Source of the DNA: Candidatus Gastranaerophilales bacterium
GTDB taxonomy: Bacteria; Cyanobacteriota; Vampirovibrionia; Gastranaerophilales; Gastranaerophilaceae
Length of the DNA: 40,403 nt
Assembly: GCA_944323705.1 (NCBI GenBank)
Contig: CALUTM010000013.1
Coordinates: 1-40,403 of the forward strand
Reading direction: 5' to 3'
Position 1 is the stretch's first letter. Every line of letters starts with the position of its first letter. The notes beneath the pieces are model-generated. The model saw only the letters and a program-made list of their open reading frames with translations, made no database searches and was not told where the DNA came from. Positions 1-1,544 of the stretch are shown piece after piece. Position numbers and translations under genes: made by a program.

Positions 1-577
1 TTTCGACGGCTATGAGATTTTCTTGCAAGTTCTTTTGTATATCTGCTTCCTGCCTCTTAACCCAAACATCTTTAAACCCGTCAATAAAAATTTTACCCGT
101 AAAAGCCATTGCACCTAGGGTTATAACACCAAGCGAAGCCAATATGGTTTTTCTGTTCGGCGATTGTATCATACTGAAAATACTCTGGTGGATTTCGTTG
201 TTAATACAGTGGTTTCGCGTTATTCCAGGCAAAAGGTATTCCTTTGTACTTTCCAATCTTCCTTTAGAGAACTTTCTCATCATAGCGGTAAACCCGCCAA
301 ACAGAGCCATCACTCCAACCGTTACGGCACATATCGGAATCAGGGGATTTGTTTTCTTTTCTTCTTTTTCATAAATTTTCTCGGGCAAATCTATATTCCT
401 GTTAGAAATAACAAGTGTATCACAGGTTTCATCAAGAGATTCCTGGGGAGTAAATGTATTTGTTACACTGTCGTAACTTCCCGCTTTAACCCCCTCCAAA
501 AGCGGGTCTTTAACAAACGAGTTTACGATAACACCTTCTTTCACAAAAGTGTCGTTTCTTTTTTGTGTATTTGTCAT
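1..577 (-). CDS. Unknown membrane protein, 3' end off the window
   Basis: An open frame starts at the ATG at 577 (reading leftwards) and runs about 192 codons without a stop to the window edge, so only the N-terminal part is visible. It opens MTNTQKRNDTFVKEG, continues with a polar, acidic stretch, and then has two hydrophobic segments: one around residues 80-103 (NPLIPICAVTVGVMALFGG) and one around residues 147-165 (TILASLGVITLGAMAF). A basic stretch lies between them, so a two-helix membrane protein is likely. It starts 22 bases after the stop of the upstream minus-strand gene, with a weak AAAGA ribosome site, so both are probably one transcript under the cobalamin riboswitch at about 1440-1535. 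I recognise no family. Plus-strand open frames over this stretch are antisense shadows. Confidence 0.72.
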   Translation of the reverse strand, partial: MTNTQKRNDTFVKEGVIVNSFVKDPLLEGVKAGSYDSVTNTFTPQESLDETCDTLVISNRNIDLPEKIYEKEEKKTNPLIPICAVTVGVMALFGGFTAMMRKFSKGRLESTKEYLLPGITRNHCINNEIHQSIFSMIQSPNRKTILASLGVITLGAMAFTGKIFIDGFKDVWVKRQEADIQKNLQENLIAVE

Positions 578-599
578 ATTTCTTTGATGTCTTGAAGAT

Positions 600-1376
600 T
601 CAAGATCCTGATTTATCTTTGGTATCATCTTTTTTCTTTTCCCTAATCTTTTGAATAAATTTTTTCAAATTAAATATTTTCTTATCTTCATCAATTTTGC
701 TGTCATCATCTCTCGTATTGTTTCTTTTGAAGATTTTAAACAACCCGTCGAACTTGGACTTTATGCTCCCGATAAACTCTGTAACCTTTTTTTCGACAAA
801 AGCCTTTGCCTCTCCGAAAATTGCATTTAATTTATCTTGAATATCAACAAATTTCTGCTTTATCTGAGACAGTTTATCCGCAATATTTGATATTGTTGAG
901 AGGATAGCACTTCCTATATTTTTAATTATGTTGACAGCCGGAACCAAAATATTAGTAATTACAAGAGCTGCGGGTTTAAAGATAAAGTTTTTGGAAATAA
1001 TGTTCGCAAAATCAATCAATTTCTGAGCCATTTTTTCAAGATTTTGCTGAAATTCCAATACAGCTTCCGCATGCAGTTTAAGATTTTTTTCATGGGCTTC
1101 AATCCTTTGTGCTCGAGCTTTCATCATTGCTCCAACCATCGCACATTGATGATAACTCCACTCACCTGCCTTTTGAGGACGCTCTCCGACTCTGGTGCTG
1201 CCGCCTCCGCCCATACCCGAGCAGATGGGACACGCTCCCGGAGACATCCCGTGGGGACATAGCCCGCTTTTAACATTATTTACATTTGGTGTTACGCCTG
1301 CCAATAAAAAACTTCCTTTACTGCATACGTGCCGCAAAGAAAGCTTTATGCAATCCTGTGACTCGCAGTCTTGCAT
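600..1376 (-). CDS. Cobalamin-riboswitch-linked unknown protein with CPHG..CPIC motif
   Basis: A 258-residue protein that I do not recognise. The N-terminus is Cys-rich (Cys4, Cys9, Cys18) and leads into a compact motif near residues 40-58, LCPHGMSPGACPICSGMGGG, with three Cys and one His that could bind a metal or cofactor. A Trp-Ser-Tyr-His segment and a basic helix follow. Residues of about 90-220 are long amphipathic helices rich in Ile, Lys and Phe (apolipoprotein- or phasin-like texture) with no clear transmembrane helix, and the tail is highly charged (Lys/Asp). No signal peptide is evident. The ATG at 1376 lacks a good Shine-Dalgarno sequence. The leader carries a cobalamin riboswitch about 65 bases upstream, so expression should respond to B12. 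It is followed at 22 bases by a membrane-protein gene. A role in B12 handling is inference only. Confidence 0.75.
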   Translation of the reverse strand: MQDCESQDCIKLSLRHVCSKGSFLLAGVTPNVNNVKSGLCPHGMSPGACPICSGMGGGGSTRVGERPQKAGEWSYHQCAMVGAMMKARAQRIEAHEKNLKLHAEAVLEFQQNLEKMAQKLIDFANIISKNFIFKPAALVITNILVPAVNIIKNIGSAILSTISNIADKLSQIKQKFVDIQDKLNAIFGEAKAFVEKKVTEFIGSIKSKFDGLFKIFKRNNTRDDDSKIDEDKKIFNLKKFIQKIREKKKDDTKDKSGS

Positions 1377-1439
1377 GATTTTGTAGTTTATACAGCAGAG
1401 ACAGACCTGAAGAAAAATTTTTTATAAAGAAATTTCACC

Positions 1440-1535
1440 AATGTCTGCAGACCATATTCCTACGTATGTAGTATTCCGGCTTTAACGGTTGCGGCACAGT
1501 CACGGATTTCCACCGTAGTTTCCTCGTATTTAGTT
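1440..1535 (-). promoter_or_regulatory. Cobalamin riboswitch
   Basis: Read on the minus strand, the leader contains the conserved cobalamin-aptamer core in the right order: GAGGAAACTACGGTGGAAAT, then CCGTGACTGTGCCGCAACCG, then the B12-box-like AAGCCGGAATACTAC. These match the family landmarks GGAA..GGTGnAAATCC, GACTGnnCCGCAACnGT and AGCCnGGAnAC. The aptamer is compact, with little between GCAACCGT and the B12 box. The palindrome GTCTGCAGAC (1443-1452) can fold on itself or pair with GGTCTGTC around 1399-1408, a plausible switch helix before the ATG at 1376. It controls the two minus-strand unknown genes, not the divergent MATE gene. Confidence 0.88.
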
Positions 1536-1544
1536 TTATTTAAT

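Follow-up and report, generated by a model that had tools for sequence, protein, structure and literature searches.

A cobalamin riboswitch conserved in front of an operon of no known protein family in Gastranaerophilales points to an undescribed B12-linked function

The window analysed here is a stretch of 40,403 nucleotides from a Candidatus Gastranaerophilales genome, and its first base is also the first base of contig C13. Close to this end, a cobalamin riboswitch precedes two overlapping genes, here termed P1 and P2. The following features were identified:

1465-1542, minus strand: cobalamin riboswitch aptamer RF01689 (AdoCbl-II), located by cmscan, with compensatory pairs in relatives
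1490-1497, minus strand: L5 loop segment GTGCCGCA, partner of L13 and perfect reverse complement of 1336-1329
1329-1336, minus strand: L13 kissing-loop segment TGCGGCAC, the 8-nt complement of L5
1308-1347, minus strand: predicted P13-like platform hairpin that pairs the Shine-Dalgarno sequence (RNA fold, z -2.74)
1312-1319, minus strand: Shine-Dalgarno sequence AAAGGAAG of P1, assigned from the sequence and its conserved spacing to the start codon
600-1304, minus strand: P1, 234 aa from a TTG start, with a CPHG..CPIC motif and long amphipathic helices, assigned from start-codon conservation, homologues and invariant Cys and His residues
2-628, minus strand: P2, the first 209 aa of a duplicated membrane protein of about 500 aa; the ORF ends at the contig end

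Scanning of the whole window with cmscan placed the aptamer at 1542-1465 over the full RF01689 model (1-81), with a score of 40.3 bits (E 2.3e-6). This is above the curated gathering score of 36.5 bits. The aptamer is the sole Rfam match in these 40 kb, and the only RF01689 match in the entire genome (1.93 Mb, 87 contigs; Gastranaerophilales, or "Melainabacteria"). An earlier, sequence-only reading of this DNA had recognized a cobalamin aptamer core on the minus strand; the covariance model bears this out and finds the aptamer complete. Seven of the ten consensus pairs in its stems show compensatory changes on both sides among relatives. In the copy from the window, the stem that the RF01689 model places outermost pairs poorly. 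We conclude that the riboswitch, of the AdoCbl-II family, is real. A promoter had also been proposed in front of it. We did not recover one: upstream of the aptamer and on its strand, the search of 1250-1700 gave neither a sigma-70-like nor any other promoter-like site. Divergent from the operon, at 1580-2896 on the plus strand, is a gene for an efflux transporter of the MATE family (TIGR00797, 206 bits), which also neighbours the operon in several relatives, in varying orientation and at varying distance.

The Cys/His-motif protein downstream of the aptamer, carrying CPHGMSPGACPIC, was confirmed as an ORF, with a different start. It had been read as 258 aa from an ATG at 1376, a frame that encloses the platform hairpin; the true start is the conserved TTG at 1304 behind AAAGGAAG. 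In nearly all homologues the P1 start, almost always TTG, lies about 15 codons ahead of CPHG, and the starts in relatives have an AAAGG-type Shine-Dalgarno sequence in front. Among 42 same-family loci, TTG rather than ATG is the start in most, at a fixed distance from CPHG. Five residues of P1 are invariant (C15, H17, C24, C27 and C53), a pattern that could bind zinc and that we regard as a putative metal-binding site. No Pfam or NCBIfam match to P1 was above cut-off. P1 also gave weak matches to tape-measure proteins of phages (best E 0.0012), which we set aside because they seem to reflect a generic resemblance among hydrophobic helices.

The start of P2 lies within P1, with an overlap of 29 nt, and its frame is cut at window position 1; the rest of P2 is found on another contig of the same genome (G000:C58:2-1021). 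What had been taken for a two-helix membrane protein is thus the beginning of a larger one, which in relatives is about 500 aa long and has three to four membrane segments. In the P2 of one relative (L086), clear hydrophobic segments lie at 96-114, 159-177 and 250-268, together with a weaker fourth. The two halves of P2 are homologous to each other (hhalign 91.8%, E 7.5e-7), indicating an internal duplication. P2 adjoins P1 in 78 of 80 loci, and a third gene, P3, follows in 34 of the 80. One locus (L153, 5037-6916) has a rearranged form of the operon, in which two P3-like frames come after P1 and P2 went undetected.

Searches of P1, P2 and P3 against Pfam, NCBIfam, PADLOC and PHROG returned weak matches only. 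Sequence profiles of the PDB yielded no usable match either, the top one being to a designed helical bundle at E 0.0056. AF2 models were all-helical and of low confidence (pLDDT 60.7 and 62.6), and Foldseek found no match at E <0.1 with these poor models. Neither P1 nor P2 matched a TonB receptor, FecCD permease, ABC ATPase or periplasmic binding protein, and no match to MetE, NrdD or another isozyme was above cut-off in Pfam or NCBIfam. Classical targets of cobalamin riboswitches are genes for B12 synthesis, for B12 or cobalt transport, and for B12-independent isozymes (PMC3766115). By the Pfam, NCBIfam and PDB searches, the regulated genes fall outside the known B12 categories, as the sequence-only reading had stated. 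Its further suggestion, an undescribed B12-related function, holds as far as the targets match no known B12 class and otherwise stands as a proposal; storage, uptake and surface binding, which it named as possible forms of this function, are conjectural.

RF01689 is present in 81 of the 97 genomes searched, and P1 homologues in 71. A model that we built from 30 copies of the riboswitch detected it ahead of P1 in every one of the 80 fetched loci, at E 3e-11 or better; these are loci rather than independent events, many of them related, with P1 identity to the query ranging from 93% down to 37%. The motif therefore precedes the homologues elsewhere as well, the pattern on which the earlier reading depended. 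Within the genus, P1 was found in 56 of 58 genomes, and in 55 of the 58 the riboswitch comes first with P1 on the same contig and strand. Ten genomes from outside the family of the window share this arrangement (G061, G063, G067, G068, G069, G071, G074, G076, G077 and G079). In a phylum-wide sample P2 was identified in 162 of 386 genomes, all in one order, Gastranaerophilales. The named relatives of P1 come for the most part from gut and rumen MAGs labelled Candidatus Gastranaerophilales or Melainabacteria. The linkage of riboswitch and P1/P2 is a strong result.

The hairpin at 1347-1308 is also present in both the MFE and the centroid structure of the whole-leader fold. It contains the L13 segment, and the Shine-Dalgarno sequence lies within its 3' side. 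The Shine-Dalgarno sequence is predicted to be paired with probability >0.8 in 25 of 42 loci, as against none of 42 shuffled controls. A complement of L5 of at least 7 nt occurs in 32 of 46 same-family loci, compared with 2% of composition shuffles, and two loci (L099 and L100) carry a compensated change in the L5/L13 match. We considered the hairpin as a terminator; a terminator scan of 1250-1700 gave no terminator-like site. The switch had earlier been sought in a palindrome and its alternative pairing with GGTCTGTC, which can form; nothing marks this pairing as the platform, a role that we assign to the hairpin instead. Judged by complementarity, an L5-L13 kissing interaction probably forms in the window riboswitch. 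Kissing of L5 and L13 that promotes an RBS hairpin is an established mechanism in the E. coli btuB and env8HyCbl switches (PMC10653944), which share with the window the AdoCbl-II aptamer family, the L5-L13 complementarity and the RBS-burying hairpin. The window differs from them in that its regulated genes are of no known family, and no perfect L13 match to L5 was found in families other than the window's own. Since L5 is complementary to the loop of the hairpin that buries the Shine-Dalgarno sequence, a translational OFF switch that sequesters this sequence in the predicted platform hairpin is likely.

In the proposed mechanism, a corrinoid in the aptamer would bring L5 (GUGCCGCA) to kiss L13 (UGCGGCAC), and the kiss would stabilize the hairpin burying the P1 Shine-Dalgarno sequence. 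P2, which starts inside P1, would be shut off together with P1 through translational coupling. Scarcity of corrinoid would allow both proteins to be made, together with P3 in other families.

Other RF01689 copies in the order are found in front of classical cobalamin genes. In G068 they precede btuB-btuC-btuD-btuF and nrdD-nrdG (checked with Pfam). As read from the sequence, metE lies downstream of RF01689 in G058 and G064, nrdD in G059, G061, G067, G071, G073, G074 and G075, and cobT and an OprB-like porin in G060. Because such classical targets stand under RF01689, the family in Gastranaerophilales most likely senses cobalamin. For the window riboswitch, known cobalamin switches and the classical targets in relatives suggest cobalamin as the ligand, and the same two sources suggest the direction of switching. 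Regulation by the riboswitch is well supported.

The genus itself shows little cobalamin metabolism. HMM searches of whole genomes, 46 of them from the genus (G000-G045), identified no NrdJ, QueG, PduO or CobA (both adenosyltransferases are thus absent), and also no BtuC, no TonB receptor (BtuB) and no EcfT (PF02361). The cobalamin riboswitch is retained in the genus despite the absence of all of these. What remains is limited to two kinds of protein: many genomes encode a radical-SAM protein that carries a B12-binding domain (checked for the window's own genome), and a MetH-type match occurs in four (G005, G018, G020 and G024, of which only that in G018 was read fully). The G018 protein (L084, 200-4703) is shortened to 893 aa, with S-methyl_trans, Pterin_bind and two B12-binding domains. 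It adjoins a second, methyltransferase-like protein of 611 aa, and there is no riboswitch match in front. The pairing of riboswitch and operon is kept even in these relatives with almost no known B12 use, which points to an undescribed B12-linked function.

Cobalamin use is more evident in other families. In families f2 to f7 we counted 16 genomes with class II NrdJ and no BtuC, of which 13 carry P1; the marginal 28-bit FecCD match of G069 is not taken as BtuC in this count, and genome counts here ignore shared ancestry among the genomes. Three genomes (G062, G067 and G069) have NrdJ, CobA and P1, and BtuC, a TonB receptor and EcfT are absent. By these signs they appear to use AdoCbl and to lack the importers tested.

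We favour an account in which P2, as a duplicated membrane protein with long helices, has as its partner P1, a protein of amphipathic helices whose Cys/His site probably binds metal. The two would most likely form an envelope complex for acquisition or trafficking of cobalamin or other corrinoids in Gastranaerophilales, an order in which many members use cobalamin without having a known import system. The aptamer, the linkage, the Shine-Dalgarno hairpin, the operon structure and the lack of known families are read in the sequence; that P1 and P2 bind or move cobalamin we infer only from their regulation and the missing importers. Taken whole, as an OFF switch controlling an envelope complex for cobalamin or other corrinoids, the account falls somewhat short of an even chance. 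A role of P1/P2 in acquisition or trafficking, taken alone, fits the regulation best and is plausible without being probable. These gradings are judgements, not measurements.

Acquisition is favoured because the NrdJ- and CobA-encoding genomes without known importers carry P1. It is disfavoured because G063 and G068 have btuBCDF and P1/P2 together, which also weakens a simple replacement of Btu, and because G058, G060 and G072 use NrdJ with neither P1 nor BtuC. The little need for cobalamin shown by a genus in which P1 is almost universal counts against it as well, as do the lack of transporter similarity in the P1 and P2 sequences, with poor structure models, and the requirement that both an outer- and an inner-membrane step be explained. 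Like BtuBCDF, P1/P2 are found under the same riboswitch family (e.g., in G068), have a membrane location and are presumably repressed by cobalamin; unlike BtuBCDF, they are by sequence not a TonB receptor, permease, ATPase or binding protein.

A rival reading takes cobalamin as a cue to niche or community. The riboswitch would then have been recruited and retained as an environmental sensor, and P1/P2 would build an envelope structure, for membrane organization, adhesion or secretion, that does not handle B12. This is unlikely, though it deserves serious consideration. It would account for a switch and operon kept in a genus missing nearly all cobalamin enzymes, including both adenosyltransferases, and for proteins that are helical, membrane-associated and without transporter similarity. 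There is also a precedent in Mycobacterium tuberculosis, where ppe2, a gene of uncertain function, is under a class II B12 riboswitch that acts as a translational OFF switch, as is proposed for P1/P2 (PMC11260477). However, ppe2 is co-transcribed with cobQ, whereas P1/P2 have no adjoining cobalamin gene and are not PPE proteins by Pfam. Sensing would still require entry of cobalamin into the cell, and every other RF01689 target read in the order with a recognizable function is a classical cobalamin gene. Moreover, G070, the only member of the order found without NrdJ, CobA and the switch, likewise lacks P1.

P1/P2 could instead belong to a cobalamin-independent bypass that, like metE or nrdDG, is produced under cobalamin shortage. 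Cobalamin riboswitches commonly have B12-independent isozymes as their targets (PMC3766115), with nrdD and metE as examples in Gastranaerophilales. Yet none of P1, P2 and P3 has a match among enzyme families, P2 lies in the membrane and has long helices, and the genus has almost no cobalamin enzyme left to bypass, so that we consider this improbable. That the aptamer of the genus is an unresponsive relic of a cobalamin-using ancestor, with a constitutive operon, is very improbable: the poorly paired outer stem and the missing adenosyltransferases would suit it, but a relic would not keep a highly conserved core, persistent compensatory pairs and an L5 that still matches L13 through the compensated change in L099 and L100.

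The acquisition reading has a stronger form, in which P1/P2, with P3 in some families, would be a machine of a new kind for acquiring cobalamin, assembled from the duplicated membrane protein and its amphipathic Cys/His partner. It would have no relation to Btu, ECF or BtuM and would serve gut bacteria that are related to Cyanobacteria and have none of the known importers. We advance this form tentatively, as rather doubtful. ECF-type systems and BtuM are alternative cobalamin importers in bacteria without Btu (PMC6977713); the genus differs from these in having no EcfT, and P1/P2 match no transporter family in Pfam or NCBIfam. Among gut bacteria with a predicted need for cobamides, about one in four has no identified synthesis or import route (PMC6977713), and an order-wide, cobalamin-switched operon in such bacteria offers two or three concrete genes as candidates for testing. 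If P1/P2 are not an importer, they would represent a cobalamin-cued function outside the classical regulon classes, in a genus with hardly any cobalamin enzyme.

The literature that we searched, non-exhaustively, contains no earlier report of P1/P2 under a riboswitch, or of Q1/Q2, a second gene pair described below. Melainabacteria, cobalamin and riboswitches are joined there only in a broad cyanobacterial review, and the main text of the founding gut genome paper contains neither "cobalamin" nor "riboswitch".

Q1/Q2 were identified under RF01689 in four genomes of another order of the same class (G082, G084, G089 and G094). The loci, each with RF01689 in front, are:

L171, 804-3343: Q1(/Q2)
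L173, 750-3440: Q1(/Q2)
L174, 653-3362: Q1(/Q2)
L172, 1653-3286: Q1(/Q2)

Q1 is a hydrophobic protein of 506-591 aa with repeated HxxDSxxSxxG-like motifs. Q2, which follows it in three of the four genomes, has 226-255 aa, a poly-Gly stretch and a helical character. Neither has a Pfam match above cut-off. The arrangement resembles that of P1/P2, with a riboswitch, a large hydrophobic protein and a small helical (here Gly-rich) protein, both proteins being of no known family. It differs in that the order of the genes is reversed in size and there is no detectable homology: hhalign gave a probability of 0.6% for P2 against Q1 and an unconvincing 39% for P1 against Q2. If P1/P2 are an acquisition machine, Q1/Q2 may serve sister orders in the same way.

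An OprB-like porin is encoded directly downstream of a cobalamin riboswitch at two loci read from the sequence, L182 (G060) and L178 (G072), in the latter followed by cbiM. Such a porin could let corrinoid or cobalt cross the outer membrane independently of TonB.
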